Of a stretch of DNA of 64,000 bases, positions 42,230-57,603 are shown one piece after another (the first letter of the stretch is position 1; each line of letters starts with the position of its first letter). This DNA comes from Candidatus Latescibacterota bacterium. Its GTDB lineage: Bacteria; Krumholzibacteriota; Krumholzibacteriia; G020349025. The stretch spans positions 2,463,501-2,527,500 of the forward strand of contig CP070763.1 of the NCBI GenBank assembly GCA_020349025.1. Direction: 5' to 3'. The notes beneath the pieces were generated by a model. The model did no database searches and was not told the DNA's origin. It saw only the letters and a program-made list of their open reading frames with translations. The translations under genes and the position numbers were made by a program.

Positions 42230-43555
42230 ATGAGCCCACGCTTGTTGGCGCACGTGGGGGTCGCGGTTGCGACACTCTTGTGTGCGCTGTTCGCTTTCTG
42301 GCCCGGTCTCGACAACGGTTTCTGGGGCAGCGATTTCCACTTTCTCGAGCGTGCCGCAGCCGCCGAGATCGACGCGGCGGTGCTCGTGCAGAGCTGGGCA
42401 GAGCCGTTCCAGCGTCCGTTGTCACAACTCGCTTTCTACTCCGAGTACGCGCTTTGGGGCCTGGACTCGCATGCATTCCTTCTGACGCACGTCCTCCTGC
42501 ATGCCTTCAACTCCACGCTCCTCTTCGCGCTGCTGCGCGGTCCGGTCGGCCCGCAGGGAGCGGCGGGAGCCGCCATCCTGTTCGCTCTTGGATTCGGCTT
42601 CTACGGTGAGACGGTGCTTCGCATCGCCGATCTTGCGCACCTGTTTGGAACCACGTTCGTCCTCGCGACCGGCATCATCGCGCTGCGAGCACAGCTGGAA
42701 CGGACGCCTCGACTGCGGCTGGTCGCCACGCTCCTCGCCGCGTCCTTCTTCTTGACGGCACTGCTCGCGCATGAAGGCGCGATCATGGCGCTGGTGATGT
42801 TCGGCGGGCTGATGTGGCCGCATCGACGCAGCATTTCGTCGGTGACGCGCAAGATGACTCTTCTCGTCGCCATCGCCATCGTTTGGCTCGGCGCCCAGGT
42901 TGTCCGCGGCATCGGCGTCGCCGAGCTCCTGACGCAAGCGGACACCTGGCTCGAGGGACCGTGGCGCGTCCTGCGGCTCGCCGCACTGTCGGTGGTTCCC
43001 ATCGCCTCCGACTCGGTGCCGGAACCGGGTGGCAGCTTGCTGCAGCGCTTTCTCCAGCTCGTCGACCAGATGCGACCGATCCTCGGGTTGCTCCTCGTCG
43101 CCGGCGCCAGCGTCTGGTTCTGGCGTGGCGCCGGTGCAGTGCGCTGGCTTCTGGCCGCGTGGCTCGGCTTCCTGGTGGCGCTCGGCCTTCTGCAACCACC
43201 CGGAAGCACGGCGCAGCTTGCCGACGCCTACCTCCCCGCGGCTTTCTTTTGCGGCGCGGTCGCGCACGGATTCCGGCTCCTGTGGATGCGGGCCACGCCG
43301 GGGCGTCGCGTGCTGTTGGGCTTGACGTTCGTGGTCGCGCTGCACGCCGGGGTCGTGCGTGTGCACACCTACGAGCTTCTGGCCGATGCGAGGGGAAGAA
43401 GCTTGGAGAGCTGGCGTCGTCTGCAGGAGCTGCAATCGCAACCGCGGCGTGAGGCTCCGGGCACACCGCAGCTGGAGCGGGAAGGCGTGTCTCAGAAGTC
43501 GGCGCCGATCGAGACGTTCGATCCGGAGGGCAGCGTCCCCCAGCGTGTGTCGTAG
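42230..43555 (+). CDS. polytopic membrane protein, possibly glycosyltransferase-like
   Basis: The 441-residue product has about 10 predicted membrane segments from residue 5 to about 385. The first loop reads NGFWGSDFHFLERA, resembling the acidic first-loop motif of GT-C membrane glycosyltransferases that use lipid-linked donors; the rest gives no family signature. A hydrophilic tail of about 55 residues ends the protein. Its last 64 bases overlap the convergent 3' end of the barrel gene on the other strand. The upstream gap contains a GC-rich hairpin (about 42143-42183) but no clear promoter. Function is uncertain; a role in envelope glycan or lipid modification is possible. Confidence 0.7.
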   Translation: MSPRLLAHVGVAVATLLCALFAFWPGLDNGFWGSDFHFLERAAAAEIDAAVLVQSWAEPFQRPLSQLAFYSEYALWGLDSHAFLLTHVLLHAFNSTLLFALLRGPVGPQGAAGAAILFALGFGFYGETVLRIADLAHLFGTTFVLATGIIALRAQLERTPRLRLVATLLAASFFLTALLAHEGAIMALVMFGGLMWPHRRSISSVTRKMTLLVAIAIVWLGAQVVRGIGVAELLTQADTWLEGPWRVLRLAALSVVPIASDSVPEPGGSLLQRFLQLVDQMRPILGLLLVAGASVWFWRGAGAVRWLLAAWLGFLVALGLLQPPGSTAQLADAYLPAAFFCGAVAHGFRLLWMRATPGRRVLLGLTFVVALHAGVVRVHTYELLADARGRSLESWRRLQELQSQPRREAPGTPQLEREGVSQKSAPIETFDPEGSVPQRVS

Positions 43556-46488
43556 CGTCGCGCCCAATCGAAACGCAGAATCACTGCGCCCAGGTTGATG
43601 CGCGTTCCGAAACCGTATGCAATCTGGGGACCTCGTCCCGGCAGCTCGCCGATGACGGTGCGGCTCGTGCGCAGGAGCGTGCTGTCCCACGCGCTCGCCG
43701 CGTCCACGAACAACGCGCCGCGAATGTTCCCCAATTCCAGAGGCAGGGGCCACCCCAGCGCCACGTAGCGCAGTAGAGGGAAGCGGAACTCGAGGCTGGC
43801 CAGAGCCGCATGATTGCCCACCAGAGCACCGTAGTCGTAGCCGCGCAGCGTGTACGCGCCCCCGAGATAGAAAGTCCGGGGCGTCGGCCCCCAGCTCGAT
43901 CCGAGATAGATCCGCGCCGCCAGGCTCGAGTGCACGTTGACGTTCCAGTATTGGCGCATGTCGGCCTGAAAGGCGGCGAAGTGCAGTTGACCGACGCCGA
44001 CCTCGAGACCGATTCGCATGCGGCGGCCGAGAATCGGACCGGTCGAGCCGAACAGAGCCGTGTCGACCACGTACGTCAGACCGGGCCCGACGAAGGTCCG
44101 GACATTCTGGATGTTGCCATCCGCCTCCGCCTCGGCCAGCGTCTGCCCCAGGAAAAAGCGACCGCGTACACCGGAAAGCTGCAGCGACGCCTCGAGGCGT
44201 GAGAACTTGTTGAAGGGCCGAAGCGCCGTGGCTTGCACGCCGACGTACGTCTGGCGTTCCACCGTATCGATCGGTTGAACCAGAAAGCCGTAGCGACGTT
44301 GGTACTGGAACGCGGCGAGGCGATAGCTGGTTCGCCCCGAGCGGTTCAGGTAGTCGACCAGAAGCTCCGAGTCTTTGAGCGAGCCATAGATCCCGAAGCC
44401 GACACCGAGGTTGTGGTTTCCCAGAAGATCGCTGAAGTGGATCTGCGAGGCTCCGCCGATTCCGGAGTTGTGCGCCACCACGCCACCCACCTGCGAGAGA
44501 TCGGGAGCGAGGCGCGGCTTGTAGCGCCGTTCCTTGAACTCGGCGTTCCGCGAAGCGCCTGGCGTGACCTGCCCGTTGCTGGTTGGCGAAGCCGGACTCG
44601 CTGGCGCGGCGAGGAGCGGGCTGGACAATGCGGCAAGCTCTGCACTCGGCGACGCTTGGGCCGCGGACGCGAGCGCGGGGATCGCCGAGTCCGGCGGCAG
44701 CTCAATCGGTGTCATCTTCTGCTGCGGGTCGTCGATGCGGTAGAGATCCCAGCCGCCACGCGAGAAGGCGGAGAACACCAGTCGGTTCGTGTCGCGCGAC
44801 CAGGAGAGCGCCGGGCTCGAAGGCAGGATCCCGCCGATCCCGGTCACCGAATCGGTGACCCGGAACACGGCACCCGTGGCGAGGTGCAGGAGATGGATGT
44901 TCGGTACGCCGTCGTGGTCGGAAACGAAGGCGATGTACTCGCCGTCACCCGACCAAGCGGGGCTGACCGCCTTGCCGTGGGGGAAGGGCGTCACGTCGCG
45001 CCGCGTCCCGCTCTCAATGTCGAGCAGCACGAGGTGCAAGCGTCCGAAGCGCAGAGCGTCCAGATCGGTGCCCGGCCCTTCGTCGGTGACGTAGACGACA
45101 GAGCGCCCGTCGGGAGACCACTGCGGGTCGCGCACGGTGAAGCGATCCGACGTCAACGCCTGCAGCTCGGTGCCGTCGGTGCGCACGCGGTAGAGATTGC
45201 TCTGACCGCCCGCAATACCGACGAACAGAATCTCCTCGCCGTCGGGGGAGAACGTCGGCGTCTGCAGCTCGTCGAGACCGAAGCGATGCGATGCGACGAC
45301 GCGACGACGCGCGACGTCGACCAGGTAGAGGGCGTCCTGCCCCCCGGCCTGCGCCGTGAACGCCAACGTGCGCGAGTCGGGCGACCAGGCGGAGCTGGCG
45401 CGGAAGAAACGCAGCGACTCGAAATCGCCGTTGACGTCCCCCTGGACGACGCGGCGCGGCCCGCGCTCCGACTCCAGATCTCGCAGATAGAGGTCGCGCG
45501 TCAGGCCGGCGTCGCTCACGTAAGCCAACCAGCGCCCGTCGGGTGAGATGCTCGGGACGAGCAACATGTTGGCTCGCTCCTCTTCCCGTGTGACGACGGG
45601 TTGCGCGAACTCGTGCACGACCTCGCGCTCCGCCAGCTCGGGCAGGTGCTGGCGGCGTACGGCGGTCGTCCAGGCGTCGGAGAACGTGCGCAGAGACACA
45701 CCGACGACGTGCTCGAGAGCTGCATCGAGACTGCGATGGTCACGCAGCGCGCGCAGCAAGTCACCGATCTGCTCCTCTCCGTAGCGCGCCGCGAAGAACT
45801 CGAAGATGCTCTGCCCGAAGCGGTAGACCCGGATGTCACGCACGTGCGTCATCTCCTCGAGCGACAGCAGATGACCCGACAGCGCTGCGTCGCGCATCCA
45901 CATGTCGGTGTGCGTATCCACCTTCGGGCGCGACAGGTACTCGGCCAGCCCTTCCATGATCCACAGAGGCGGCCCGTACGCGAAGGGATTGAGGGGATCG
46001 GTGGCGACCGGATCGAAGAGGAGGTCGATCTCGAAGGCGTGCACGAGCTCGTGAGTGAGCACGTGCTCAAACTCGCCGAAAGAACCCGTGAAGGGCAGGA
46101 AGACCCGCCTGCGCGCGAGATCGGTGATCCCGCCGGTACCGACGTCGATCAACGATGGCGTGATGTGGGTCTGCTGGAAATCGGAGTGCGAGGCGTAGAG
46201 GATGAGCGGAATCTTGCGACCAATGTCGTGCTGCAGCGTTCTGGCGATGCGTAAGTAGGCGCGCTCGGCCATGCGAGCCGCATCGTGGACGATCTCCTCT
46301 TCGTTCTCATAGAAGAGGATCTCGAAGTGCCGCGTTTCGAGCACGCGCCAGCGATAGTCCTTGTATTGGACTTTGTTCTTGCCGAAGTACTGTGCCTGTG
46401 CCGGCAACGCACAAAGCAGCGACAGCAGGAACAGTGGTAGGAAGCCGTGGCGCAAAGGAGTCCCCCGCCGGAAGCCCGGCGCACCCAC
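43492..46488 (-). CDS. metallopeptidase MA-like / TolB propeller / BamA-like barrel fusion
   Basis: This 998-residue exported protein combines three parts. A signal peptide (LPLFLLSLLCALPAQA) precedes a gluzincin-like domain with HELVH (146-150) and a glutamate about 30 residues on (WIMEGLAEY). From about 300 to 610 come TolB-type PD40 propeller repeats (SPDGRWLAYVS, SPDSRTLAFTA, SPDGEEILFVG, SPDGRSVVYV, SGDGEYIAFVS). After a Ser/Ala/Pro linker, residues 680-998 form a surface-antigen (D15/BamA-like) barrel, with GGAYTLRGY and final SIGADF. It probably sits in the outer membrane with peptidase and propeller outside or in the periplasm. The GTG start at 46488 is weakly supported; TTG 46455 is an alternative. 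Confidence 0.85.
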   Translation of the reverse strand: MGAPGFRRGTPLRHGFLPLFLLSLLCALPAQAQYFGKNKVQYKDYRWRVLETRHFEILFYENEEEIVHDAARMAERAYLRIARTLQHDIGRKIPLILYASHSDFQQTHITPSLIDVGTGGITDLARRRVFLPFTGSFGEFEHVLTHELVHAFEIDLLFDPVATDPLNPFAYGPPLWIMEGLAEYLSRPKVDTHTDMWMRDAALSGHLLSLEEMTHVRDIRVYRFGQSIFEFFAARYGEEQIGDLLRALRDHRSLDAALEHVVGVSLRTFSDAWTTAVRRQHLPELAEREVVHEFAQPVVTREEERANMLLVPSISPDGRWLAYVSDAGLTRDLYLRDLESERGPRRVVQGDVNGDFESLRFFRASSAWSPDSRTLAFTAQAGGQDALYLVDVARRRVVASHRFGLDELQTPTFSPDGEEILFVGIAGGQSNLYRVRTDGTELQALTSDRFTVRDPQWSPDGRSVVYVTDEGPGTDLDALRFGRLHLVLLDIESGTRRDVTPFPHGKAVSPAWSGDGEYIAFVSDHDGVPNIHLLHLATGAVFRVTDSVTGIGGILPSSPALSWSRDTNRLVFSAFSRGGWDLYRIDDPQQKMTPIELPPDSAIPALASAAQASPSAELAALSSPLLAAPASPASPTSNGQVTPGASRNAEFKERRYKPRLAPDLSQVGGVVAHNSGIGGASQIHFSDLLGNHNLGVGFGIYGSLKDSELLVDYLNRSGRTSYRLAAFQYQRRYGFLVQPIDTVERQTYVGVQATALRPFNKFSRLEASLQLSGVRGRFFLGQTLAEAEADGNIQNVRTFVGPGLTYVVDTALFGSTGPILGRRMRIGLEVGVGQLHFAAFQADMRQYWNVNVHSSLAARIYLGSSWGPTPRTFYLGGAYTLRGYDYGALVGNHAALASLEFRFPLLRYVALGWPLPLELGNIRGALFVDAASAWDSTLLRTSRTVIGELPGRGPQIAYGFGTRINLGAVILRFDWARRYDTRWGTLPSGSNVSIGADF

Positions 46489-46742: not shown

Positions 46743-47489
46743 TCACTCCGTCTTCAGACGGCGCTCGTCGGCATCGAAGACGCGGACCAGCCCGTCTCCA
46801 CCGACACCGATGATTTCGGGAACGCCATCGGAGTCGATGTCGAACAGGTCCATCTCCTCGCCGAATCCCGGCTCGTACTCCCACTTCACGTCGCGGAAAA
46901 CGGCTCCCAGAACCAGTCCGGTGTTGAGGACGATCTCGTCGCGCCCATCTCCATCCACGTCGCCGATGGCGATCTCTGAGGCCGCGAAGGGATCGGAACT
47001 CGTCCACTCCTCGACGTCGCGCAGCGCCGTCAGGACGCGCAACAGTCCATCCGCGATCAGGACGATCTCCGGCTCGCCATCCTCGTCGACGTCGCCCACC
47101 GTGAGCGTGCTGATGCTGCGGTAGCGCCCGTCTGGCGTCGTCCAGATGTCGCTCAGATCATCTCCACGCAGGATGAACAAACGCGAGTCCTGCGTGAATC
47201 CGACGACTTCGTCCTGCCCATTGCCATCGAGATCGGCCGCCAACATCTCCAGCACGGGTGACCAGAGATCTCGTGTGAGGGCGGTCACCAACCTGCCCTG
47301 GTTGCTCTCGATCAGGTGCAGGGTGCCGCGATAGCTGCCGTAGAGCAGGCGGCGCTGCGCTCCGTGGATGAGCGTGAAAGGCTCGTACTTGGCCGCCAGG
47401 TCGGTGGCACGCGGCTTGAGGTTTCCGGCTTGCAGGGTGACGGCGGTCGTCGTGATCAGGAGTGTCGCGACGCAGATTCGAAGCCCCAT
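46743..47489 (-). CDS. secreted FG-GAP/VCBS-like calcium-site propeller protein
   Basis: The 248-residue protein has a signal peptide (MGLRICVATLLITTTAVTLQA) and at least four repeats with calcium-binding loops: DLDGNGQDEV, DVDEDGEPEIV, DVDGDGRDEIV and DIDSDGVPEIIG. Such DxDxDG-xxEI repeats form integrin-like beta propellers on secreted or surface proteins and mediate binding. No transmembrane anchor or sorting domain is seen, so it may be free in the periplasm or exported. GAGG lies before the ATG. A good promoter sits directly upstream. A role with the adjacent barrel fusion is possible but unproven. Confidence 0.82.
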   Translation of the reverse strand: MGLRICVATLLITTTAVTLQAGNLKPRATDLAAKYEPFTLIHGAQRRLLYGSYRGTLHLIESNQGRLVTALTRDLWSPVLEMLAADLDGNGQDEVVGFTQDSRLFILRGDDLSDIWTTPDGRYRSISTLTVGDVDEDGEPEIVLIADGLLRVLTALRDVEEWTSSDPFAASEIAIGDVDGDGRDEIVLNTGLVLGAVFRDVKWEYEPGFGEEMDLFDIDSDGVPEIIGVGGDGLVRVFDADERRLKTE

Positions 47490-47557: not shown

Positions 47558-48469
47558 CTACTTCAGCCGGCGGAAGAGATTGAATCCGAGGTCCTTGCGC
47601 GCCAGGTACTTGATGAGTTCGTCGATGACGGCGAGATCGAACAGACCGATACGCTGCTCCTCCTTTGCATCGAGAAGGAGTCCGCCGATATCGCGCCAAC
47701 GCAGCTCACCAAGCGTCTGGGCGGCCATGTCGACAACATCGTGATCCTGACGGTGAGGCAAGCGAGCCGTCAGCATCTCTCCGTGCCCACGGTAGAGGTC
47801 GACGAGACGCTTCGTCTCCGTGTTGAAGGTCCGAGGGTCCGTGTAGACCACCAGGCTGAGGAACTTCTTGCCCGCTTCCCGAGCCGCCCAGGTTCCTGCG
47901 TCCAGAACCCGCAACAGCTCGTCCCGGTGGGCATCGTAGCGCGTGTTCTGGCGCAGGTTGCCCTTGTACACGGCAAGAACGACGAGCATCCACGCAGGTG
48001 TTTCGATGCAAAGCGGAATCTCGACGCGATCTTCGAGCGGCAACTCGTCGCGCAGGAGCCGCGCGATCTCCTGCTTCTTCTCTGCAACGAAGCGTGCCGG
48101 GTAATGCTCGAGCGGGAGACTGGCGTTGCATGCCTGCTCGCGCAGCCATTCGTGACGCGAAGGCGGAAGATCGAGGCGGCGCCACCAGTGGAATCGCGTC
48201 GCCTCCAGCGTGCTCGAGTCGAGCAGATCGCGCACGTGCGGCGGCGCCTTGGGCTCGGCACGAGAGTGCAGGATGAAGCGCGGCAGCCACAGCCTCGGAT
48301 CGAGCTTCTGCAGCGAACGGAAGACGTTCCAGAGCAGCGCGATCTGGCTGTCCTCGCTGCGGAGCTGAGACGCACGCTCTTGAAGCAAAGCGTTCTCGAC
48401 GTCGACCGTCAGATTGTCTCGCGGATCCTCGTAGATGCGGACTTCGCCTTCCGTGCGCCGCCGCGCCAT
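47558..48469 (-). CDS. unrecognised conserved-looking cytoplasmic protein
   Basis: I do not recognise this 303-residue protein. It starts at ATG 48469 with a strong GGAGGG ribosome-binding site; an upstream 22-residue extension is unlikely. It has no signal peptide or membrane segment. The sequence is rich in charged helices, with W-W and aromatic patches (RFHWWRRLDLP, IETPAWMLVVLAVYKGNLRQNTRYD) and ends LIKYLARKDLGFNLFRRLK. Base use and codon pattern look like real coding sequence. It follows aroA by 72 bases on the same strand and precedes the propeller gene, suggesting co-transcription with aroA but not a role. A nuclease-like or helical regulatory fold are both only guesses. Confidence 0.75.
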   Translation of the reverse strand: MARRRTEGEVRIYEDPRDNLTVDVENALLQERASQLRSEDSQIALLWNVFRSLQKLDPRLWLPRFILHSRAEPKAPPHVRDLLDSSTLEATRFHWWRRLDLPPSRHEWLREQACNASLPLEHYPARFVAEKKQEIARLLRDELPLEDRVEIPLCIETPAWMLVVLAVYKGNLRQNTRYDAHRDELLRVLDAGTWAAREAGKKFLSLVVYTDPRTFNTETKRLVDLYRGHGEMLTARLPHRQDHDVVDMAAQTLGELRWRDIGGLLLDAKEEQRIGLFDLAVIDELIKYLARKDLGFNLFRRLK

Positions 48470-48541
48470 CGATCCCTCCCGACATGCCGCAGGAAGCGGT
48501 ACCGCACTCAGAAGCAACGCACATGCCTGGATCACGAGGCG

Positions 48542-54819: not shown

Positions 54820-54903
54820 TGCGAGCGCGGCGACCGCTTCAGGATGGTGAAACGGTGAGCGCGGTGCGCGACCGTGCTATGGTCTGCGGCGGGAGGATGT
54901 GTC

Positions 54904-57603
54904 GTGAAGAAGCGGTGGTTGCTCCTCGTCCCCCTGGGCCTGATCCTCGTCATCACGATTGCGTTTCTCTTCCTGCGTCGCGCCTATCCGCCGGAACGGC
55001 TGCTCGCCCTGGTCGAGCCGCGTGTCGAGTCGGCGCTGGGTCGTGACGTGGAGATCGCAAGCGCCCAGCTCACACCCTTCCCGCTCGCGCTTCGACTCGA
55101 CGACGTGCGGATACAGGCTGCACCCGGCTTCGCCACGCCCGACCTGGTGACGCTGGCTTCGTTGCGCTTCGATCTGAAGCTCGGCCCGCTCCTGCAGCGT
55201 CGCATCGCCGTGCGCTCTCTGGTCATCGAATCACCTCGGGTGTTTCTCGAACAGAACATGGAAGGGCGTTGGAACTACGAGCTCTCGAAAGCTGCGCAGG
55301 AGGATGCAGCCGCACCCGAGTCGGCAGCGCCCGGTGCGGCTGCCGTGGCCCCGCTGGGGCTCGCGGTCGAGACGCTGCAGCTGCGCGATGGGGAGCTGCA
55401 TGTGTGGAACGCGCAGCAAGACCTCGCGCTCGAGCTCCCCTTCGCCGGCAAGTGGAGCGTGCGCACGGATCGCAACCTGCGCGACATCCGTGTCGAGGGG
55501 TGGCTCGAGAGCGATGCGCTCTCGGGCGGGGATCGGGGGCGGCTGGCGCGCGTGCAGGGAGTGCGACTGCGGCTCGAGCCGAGACTTCGCGCCGACGTCG
55601 CCGACTCGTCGGCGGTGATCGAAGCGTTGCACGTCGAGCTCCAGGGCCTGGCACTCGATCTCGCCGGGAAAGGTGCGATCCGTGGTGGCGCACCGCAACT
55701 GCAGCTGCAAACGCGGAGCAACGAGTTCGACCTCGCGGAGCTTCTCAGCTTGGTGCCGCAAGGTCTTGCGCCACAGATCGAAACGCTCCGCGCCGCGGGA
55801 CGCGGACGGCTGGCGCTCGAGATCGATCTGCCCGCCGGCGGTGAAGCGGGCTTGAGCGGCCGCCTCTCGATTTCGGATGGGTCGATCGAGTCGGAGGAGT
55901 GGCCCGCGATCGGGGGATTGCAGGCGGACCTCGATTATGCCGGCGACTTCCTCATGATCTCGAAGCTCGAGGCGAAGGTGGCCGGCTCGCCGATTCGGAT
56001 CGAGGGGCGCGTGCACGAGCCGCTCGACCGCGACCAGGCTGCGCTCGATCTCAACCTGCAGGCTGCCGTCGACCTCGGCCAGGCGCTGCGGCTGTTCGAA
56101 TCCCCCGACGATCTCGAGCTCTCCGGAAACGTCGGTGCGAGCTTGCGCGTTCAGGGCAGCCCCTACTCCGGGGCGCTGCCACACCTGCAGGGCCCGATCA
56201 CGCTCGAAAGCGTGCGCATCCGCACCGCGCAACTCGCGCAACCCCTCGGCCTCCACGCGCGACTCGAAGCGCGCGGCGATCAGGTCGAGATTGCCTCGGC
56301 GACGCTCGATGCGGGCGGCTCGAAGGTCACGCTCGAAGGCACGCTGCACGCGGCGCTCACGCCCGACCTGGCTCGGCTCGAGCTGCGCGCGCGTGCAGGG
56401 ACGCTCGACCTCGACCCGCTTCTCGCAGCCGCCGACGCCGACGCGGCTGCGGGCGAGGATGCCGCGGCGGCACCCCCCACGCGGCAGACAGCGACGCCCC
56501 CCCTCCTGCCTCTCCGCATGCAAGCCATGTTGCAGGCCGATGCCATCCACGCGCGCGGCGCCGCCTTGGGTGAAGCGCGTGTCGAGCTGGACGCTGGACC
56601 GGAGGAGATCGATGCGCGCCTGACGGCGGCGACGTTCGACCGCGACAAGCTGCATCTCAAGACGCTGCGCGCGCGCGTGCAGGGCCAGCCCACGCGGGCG
56701 ACGGGCAGGTTGCAGGCCGCGCGCGGCAAGCTGGCCAAGCTCGAGCTCTCGGAGCTGGAAAGCGACGTGCGCGTCGCCGGCACGCGCATCGAGCTGACGA
56801 ACCTGCGTGCACGCGCCTACCAGGGACGTGTCGTCGGTGAGGTCGCGATCGACCTGGCCGAGCCGGACACGCCGCAGCAGGAGCTCGAGATCGAGGTGGA
56901 GGAAGTCCAGCTGGGCGGGTTGCTGGGTGACGTGACGACCGCCGGCAGTCTGGTTCACGGCAGCTTGAGCGGCACCTCCTCCTGGTCTTCGCGCGGTGTG
57001 GACGCTGCCGCGATCCGGCGCAACCTGACGGCGGAGGGACAAGGCGTGGCGTTGAACGGCACCCTGCGCGACACCCCGCTCCTCGTGGCACTCGGCGACA
57101 TCCTGAAGCTGACGAGCTTGCGCGACTTTAACTACCGCGAGCTCGGTTTCAAGTTCGAGGTCGAGTCGGGGCGGGTACGGTTTCCGCGCCTGCAGCTTCG
57201 CGGCAGCGATGCCAACCTGGCGTTTCTGGGCAGCGTGGGGCTCGACGGGGCCCTCGATCTCGATCTCAACGTGCAGCTCTCCGACGAACTCAGCCGGCAC
57301 TATCTGAAACAGAGGGGCGGCTCCACGCTCGGCTCCATCTTCGCCGACGAGCAGGGACGTGTGGTCCTCGACTTCGACGTCGGAGGCAGCGTCAAGGCAC
57401 CGCGCCTGCGCCCCAATCTGCAACGCACCGCGTCGCGCGGCTTGAAGTCGATCGAGGACCTCGACCTCGGCAAGCTGCTCGGCGAGGTCGCCGAGGACCC
57501 GAAGAGCGCCGAGACGATCGTCGGAGACCAGCTCAAAGACGCCCTGGGCGGCTTGCTCGGGTCGAAGAAGCGCGCCGCGCCCGACAGCACACGCAAGCCG
57601 TGA
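54904..57603 (+). CDS. AsmA-family envelope protein
   Basis: The 899-residue protein has an N-terminal membrane anchor (KKRWLLLVPLGLILVITIAFLFL) followed by an AsmA-like region with VEPRVESALGRDVEIASAQLTPFPLALRLDDVRI, typical of the family. The middle is a long chain of beta strands with alternating polarity, and the C-terminal part (from about 690) has FNYRELGFKFEVESGRVRFPRLQL and LDLDLNVQLSDEL, the AsmA-2 end. Such proteins bridge the inner and outer membranes to move phospholipids. GTG 54904 has GGAGG upstream. Length is typical. It could cooperate with the LPS-export genes of the window. Confidence 0.88.
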   Translation: MKKRWLLLVPLGLILVITIAFLFLRRAYPPERLLALVEPRVESALGRDVEIASAQLTPFPLALRLDDVRIQAAPGFATPDLVTLASLRFDLKLGPLLQRRIAVRSLVIESPRVFLEQNMEGRWNYELSKAAQEDAAAPESAAPGAAAVAPLGLAVETLQLRDGELHVWNAQQDLALELPFAGKWSVRTDRNLRDIRVEGWLESDALSGGDRGRLARVQGVRLRLEPRLRADVADSSAVIEALHVELQGLALDLAGKGAIRGGAPQLQLQTRSNEFDLAELLSLVPQGLAPQIETLRAAGRGRLALEIDLPAGGEAGLSGRLSISDGSIESEEWPAIGGLQADLDYAGDFLMISKLEAKVAGSPIRIEGRVHEPLDRDQAALDLNLQAAVDLGQALRLFESPDDLELSGNVGASLRVQGSPYSGALPHLQGPITLESVRIRTAQLAQPLGLHARLEARGDQVEIASATLDAGGSKVTLEGTLHAALTPDLARLELRARAGTLDLDPLLAAADADAAAGEDAAAAPPTRQTATPPLLPLRMQAMLQADAIHARGAALGEARVELDAGPEEIDARLTAATFDRDKLHLKTLRARVQGQPTRATGRLQAARGKLAKLELSELESDVRVAGTRIELTNLRARAYQGRVVGEVAIDLAEPDTPQQELEIEVEEVQLGGLLGDVTTAGSLVHGSLSGTSSWSSRGVDAAAIRRNLTAEGQGVALNGTLRDTPLLVALGDILKLTSLRDFNYRELGFKFEVESGRVRFPRLQLRGSDANLAFLGSVGLDGALDLDLNVQLSDELSRHYLKQRGGSTLGSIFADEQGRVVLDFDVGGSVKAPRLRPNLQRTASRGLKSIEDLDLGKLLGEVAEDPKSAETIVGDQLKDALGGLLGSKKRAAPDSTRKP

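Follow-up and report, generated by a model that had tools for sequence, protein, structure and literature searches.

Results

Three modules in one exported chain

The window, by which we mean the whole stretch of 64,000 nucleotides analysed here, carries an open reading frame with a GTG start whose product, a single chain of 998 aa, combines a gluzincin-type zinc peptidase domain, a TolB-like propeller and an Omp85 barrel (Table 1). The signal peptide ends in LPAQA, with Q as the next residue, and the sequence has no lipobox cysteine. A full-length AlphaFold2 model built from a 30-row family alignment (pLDDT 78.9, pTM 0.79) shows a helical N-domain, the propeller, a linker disordered at about residues 606-648 and the barrel, and the best Foldseek matches of this model are TolB and BamA barrels.

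Table 1. Features of the three-module gene and of its co-directional neighbours in the window
Feature	Position	Strand	Residues	Evidence
Three-module protein	43492..46488	-		ORF, Pfam, fold model
Signal peptide, Sec type, without lipobox	46393..46488	-	1-32	Sequence; low-confidence N-terminal helix in model
Family signature FGKNK, directly after signal peptide	46372..46386	-	35-39	G36 and N38 in 107/109 relatives
Gluzincin-type zinc peptidase domain	45619..46392	-	33-290	Peptidase_MA_2 in family, collagenase profile matches, collagenase G fold match
HELVH zinc motif	46039..46053	-	146-150	H146, E147, H150 identical in 109/109
EGLAE	45940..45954	-	179-183	E179 in 109/109, E183 in 108/109
TolB-like beta-propeller	44719..45603	-	296-590	PD40; TolB by PDB sequence and fold
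Disordered A/P/S-rich linker	44527..44718	-	591-654	pLDDT <50 at 606-648
Omp85 16-stranded outer-membrane barrel, last residue Phe	43495..44526	-	655-998	PF01103, model strands, BamA matches
LRGY, loop-6 VRGF/Y motif of Omp85, strands 11-12	43837..43848	-	881-884	R882 in 109/109, G883 in 108/109
Exported FG-GAP propeller protein of 248 aa, upstream and co-directional	46743..47489	-		FG-GAP_3 4.5e-13
325-aa protein, co-directional, kept in G001	47558..48535	-		No family match

Peptidase_MA_2 matches the window protein at 2e-5, its 28.6 bits lying below the Pfam curated cut-off of 32.4, and it matches 55 of the 63 family members at E up to 0.01. Modelled alone from 63 sequences, the N-domain reached a pLDDT of 90.8 and a pTM of 0.88. 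In the PDB the structure closest in fold to this predicted model is the collagenase G peptidase domain (TM 0.61 by query), and the top matches are the collagenase G and T peptidase domains, followed by M1 aminopeptidases, at TM of about 0.6; a sequence profile of the domain, as a separate line of evidence, matches microbial collagenases (8e-5) and, weakly, glutamyl aminopeptidase. Both marks of gluzincins are present, namely HExxH with a downstream Glu and, in the predicted model, the gluzincin fold. By analogy with other gluzincins E179, identical like H146, E147 and H150 across the 109 full-length relatives, is the presumed third zinc ligand. A Pfam search of the window protein and of family members returned no M48 or TPR match.

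The propeller is matched by PD40 in six stretches (9.5e-28) and resembles TolB by NCBIfam, PDB sequence search and fold, its 120.4 bits against the NCBIfam TolB equivalog standing below the cut-off of 343; a viral fold library gave generic propeller-type matches only. The linker that follows varies between 32 and 182 aa across the family. PF01103 covers residues 746-998 of the window protein (3.3e-16, 60.2 bits against a cut-off of 24), and the full-length model places 16 barrel strands at residues 661-997, with LRGY between strands 11 and 12. BamA carries a VRGF motif in the loop where LRGY falls. In 106 of 109 relatives the chain ends in F, W or Y, an ending expected of outer-membrane barrels. 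By its barrel score, its 16 strands and its loop-6 motif the protein is thus an Omp85 protein in which Pfam finds no POTRA match, POTRA domains being usual in the superfamily, although the definition of Heinz & Lithgow, which is based on the barrel, does without them. The invariance of zinc-site and Omp85 residues, R882 among them, in 109 relatives from many phyla suggests selection on catalysis and on the barrel.

The earlier note had read a gluzincin domain, a propeller and a barrel in one exported polypeptide, and Pfam, the signal peptide and the fold models all agree with it. Structure prediction over the 998 residues recovered the three modules, the zinc site expected at HELVH is invariant together with the downstream EGxxE glutamate, and the barrel sought after residue 680 was modelled with all its strands, starting near 655 rather than 680. 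Its description of modules parted by linkers holds for the long one between propeller and barrel, but the peptidase-propeller junction is short.

An old and widespread family

A public-genome scan with the family alignment as query, the single protein having given no match, confirmed at least 494 loci of the family, those listed coming from Gemmatimonadota, Eisenbacteria, KSB1, Calditrichota, Bacteroidota, Cloacimonadota, Acidobacteriota, Aminicenantes, Latescibacterota and others. Among the window's genome and its relatives, 43 of 58 genomes have the family (E up to 1e-40), often in 2-3 copies. From these counts the three-module architecture is old and common and not a one-off fusion, and the earlier view that the combination is unusual has to be given up, all the more as propeller-Omp85 fusions were described in 2014 (PMC4104836).

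The window's genome itself holds two further relatives, a copy of 1095 aa and a copy whose frame is interrupted by masked sequence. The latter, third copy (L119, G000:C1:3201584-3202645) has a dapB-like neighbour, and it shares this gene neighbour with the copy at L121 in a related genome, G001. Another clade of the family, represented by three Gemmatimonadota loci (L042, L039 and L063), has a different conserved gene order, near rpsF-, rplI-, dnaB- and rsfS-like genes, then SPOR-domain proteins and an SMC-like gene.

The surroundings of the window copy

The window gene belongs to a co-directional run, aroA, the 325-aa protein, the FG-GAP protein and the three-module gene, which is kept in the family relative G001, with neighbours 52-65% identical; the FG-GAP protein, at 65% identity, is kept beside the gene there, but the entire neighbourhood is conserved as well, so that a partner bound by both proteins, as suggested in the earlier note, is at most a possibility. 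An AsmA/YhdP-family protein of 909 aa (AsmA 4e-21) is encoded at 54874-57603 on the forward strand, 8.4 kb from the three-module gene, and as part of this conserved neighbourhood it too is present in G001.

No tamB lies beside the window gene. A tree of 38 rows places the tamB-linked copies on the opposite side of a branch with 100% SH-aLRT support from the clade of the window, whose members are the window copy, that of G001, an Eisenbacteria locus and one further bacterium. A larger, faster tree also parts the two clades, but its pattern of support differs at the deepest branches, and the exact deep order of the family tree as read from these alignments is uncertain. We considered whether the window gene might be a relocated tamB-linked copy and rejected this, the tree placing it across the fully supported branch from that clade.

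Position behind tamB in related genomes

After a TamB search across the relatives, positions were compared in the 43 class-level relatives that have the family, the window's genome among them. In 39 of the 43, which are related genomes spanning many genera and not 39 independent events, exactly one three-module gene follows tamB immediately and on its strand; the gap between the tamB match and the three-module match is 11 to 346 bp. Loci long enough to show it have the common order dxr-rseP-tamA-tamB-[three-module gene]-uvrD. In an Eisenbacteria locus, too, the three-module gene follows the genes for an M50 peptidase of rseP type, a POTRA-Omp85 protein and TamB. Different genes flank the family's members in Gemmatimonadota, Acidobacteriota and Aminicenantes.

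Four of the 43 genomes are exceptions. Two of them, G028, where tamB is at a contig end, and G054, where the pieces lie on separate contigs and one is cut at the contig start, cannot be judged because they are contig-edge fragments. In the remaining two, the window's genome and G001, dxr-rseP-tamA-tamB-uvrD is kept with nothing between tamB and uvrD (in the window's genome at L148, G000:C1:2564000-2582000). The same empty slot occurs in several other genomes of the class. Since relatives thus carry tamA-tamB-uvrD without it, TAM does not need the three-module gene, which by this gene content is accessory; a role as a core TAM part was rejected on the same ground. Besides it, the window's genome has three strong Omp85 candidates, POTRA-type proteins among them, and two TamB genes, with a second Omp85-TamB pair at G000:C1:1375822-1381185. 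These point to the three-module protein as an added component, and we rejected a replacement of BamA or TamA.

Discussion

Fusions of a propeller to an Omp85 barrel were described as 'WD40-Omp85' by Heinz & Lithgow (2014, PMC4104836), who likened the arrangement to BamA fused with BamB, and as late as 2024 a paper counts them among the proteins that are not well characterised (PMC11116518). The three-module protein, in which a TolB-like propeller immediately precedes an Omp85 barrel and POTRA is absent, has the arrangement that marks this group, from which it differs by the zinc peptidase ahead of the propeller. The WD40-Omp85 subfamily of PMC4104836 may even contain the same proteins, and the main text of that paper makes no mention of a zinc peptidase on them. 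In the literature searched, which covers few subscription journals, we found neither an N-terminal zinc peptidase on a propeller-Omp85 protein nor the linkage to tamB, and a paper on TAM evolution does not mention WD40 or propeller proteins. The propeller-Omp85 pair is therefore known, while the N-terminal zinc peptidase and the tamB linkage are probably new.

PF00149 is the calcineurin-like phosphoesterase family. For this reason it may be that no zinc-peptidase Omp85 is described in PMC4104836, where PF00149-Omp85 proteins are called metalloproteases.

Several known systems resemble parts of the three-module protein. The patatin-Omp85 protein PlpD also has an enzyme domain N-terminal to an Omp85 barrel, but this is a lipase with one POTRA instead of a zinc peptidase with a propeller and no POTRA, and the domain, formerly believed to be secreted, lies in the periplasm, like the POTRA domains of Omp85 proteins (PMC11116518). 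BepA, an M48 peptidase (PMC7950410), is a zinc metallopeptidase which acts on LptD and BamA intermediates on BAM (PMC8423444), and a periplasmic zinc peptidase beside the barrel-assembly machine is close to the role that we propose; unlike BepA, the three-module protein is closest in fold to M9 collagenase and M1 and is joined covalently to its own barrel. TamA or TamL is an Omp85 protein encoded beside tamB (PMC4494059, PMC12045153), as is the three-module protein in relatives, yet that cluster already contains TamA, and the three-module protein is an additional Omp85 protein that lacks POTRA. TolB and BamB share the propeller fold, which here sits in a larger membrane-anchored chain.

From this we tentatively propose, as the best single reading though at a little under even odds, that the three-module protein is an outer-membrane-anchored periplasmic peptidase, an accessory of outer-membrane biogenesis (BAM/TAM) in assembly or quality control. 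The barrel of this Omp85 protein would lie in the outer membrane, with the peptidase and the propeller hanging below it in the periplasm, where we place them because the PlpD enzyme domain and the Omp85 POTRA domains are periplasmic (PMC11116518). The propeller would do the docking that falls to POTRA domains and BamB in other systems, and the peptidase may clip or degrade outer-membrane protein chains arriving at the assembly machinery or stalled on it, so that the accessory protein would hold such chains and cut the failed or immature ones. The periplasmic orientation, the catalytic activity, the substrate and the contact with TamB, TamA or BamA are parts of the proposal that we infer. The earlier suggestion of processing or insertion of outer-membrane proteins is kept in so far as it has the modules acting together in envelope assembly, which the operon-like placing of the gene behind tamB in relatives supports independently.

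It is possible, if more doubtful, that the family provides TAM with an optional third component, a protease-equipped, POTRA-less Omp85 which works with TamA-TamB in many little-studied phyla. The tamB linkage is evidence on the family, and it bears on the window copy by kinship only, the latter belonging to a different clade and a different neighbourhood. The window copy would presumably do the same job as the tamB-linked copies, though it does not stand beside tamB.

The intact loop-6 motif of the Omp85 barrel would also suit a protein that is an insertase or translocase in its own right, its barrel folding or exporting a class of clients, its propeller selecting them and its peptidase trimming them, which would be maturation and not quality control. 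Several diverged copies per genome are what one would expect if each served different clients, and the comparison of propeller-Omp85 proteins by Heinz & Lithgow to BamA joined with BamB (PMC4104836) goes the same way, but no client gene travels along and the neighbours vary between clades, and we regard this explanation as unlikely. It is less probable still that the peptidase serves lipid or envelope homeostasis tied to lipid transfer of TamB type, for instance by cutting a regulator and not outer-membrane proteins. TamB is implicated in phospholipid transport (PMC11014939, PMC12800296) and the AsmA/YhdP-like gene is in the window, but that gene runs in the opposite direction and is separated from the three-module gene by several others, a weak tie. 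The least probable is a surface-anchored protease, an alternative raised in the earlier note, whose peptidase and propeller would be carried outside through the barrel to act on surrounding proteins: the collagenase-like fold and the long linker ahead of the barrel could suit it, but the same claim for PlpD was overturned by its periplasmic enzyme domain (PMC11116518), and the rseP-tamA-tamB cluster in relatives fits an envelope role.

WD40-Omp85 proteins have been without a function since they were named in 2014. The invariant zinc peptidase and the fixed place behind tamB turn this into a concrete and testable hypothesis, that of outer-membrane assembly with a built-in protease. If it is true, a component would be added to TAM, whose TamB part occurs across most double-membraned bacteria, and outer-membrane assembly would be given a covalently attached quality-control protease.
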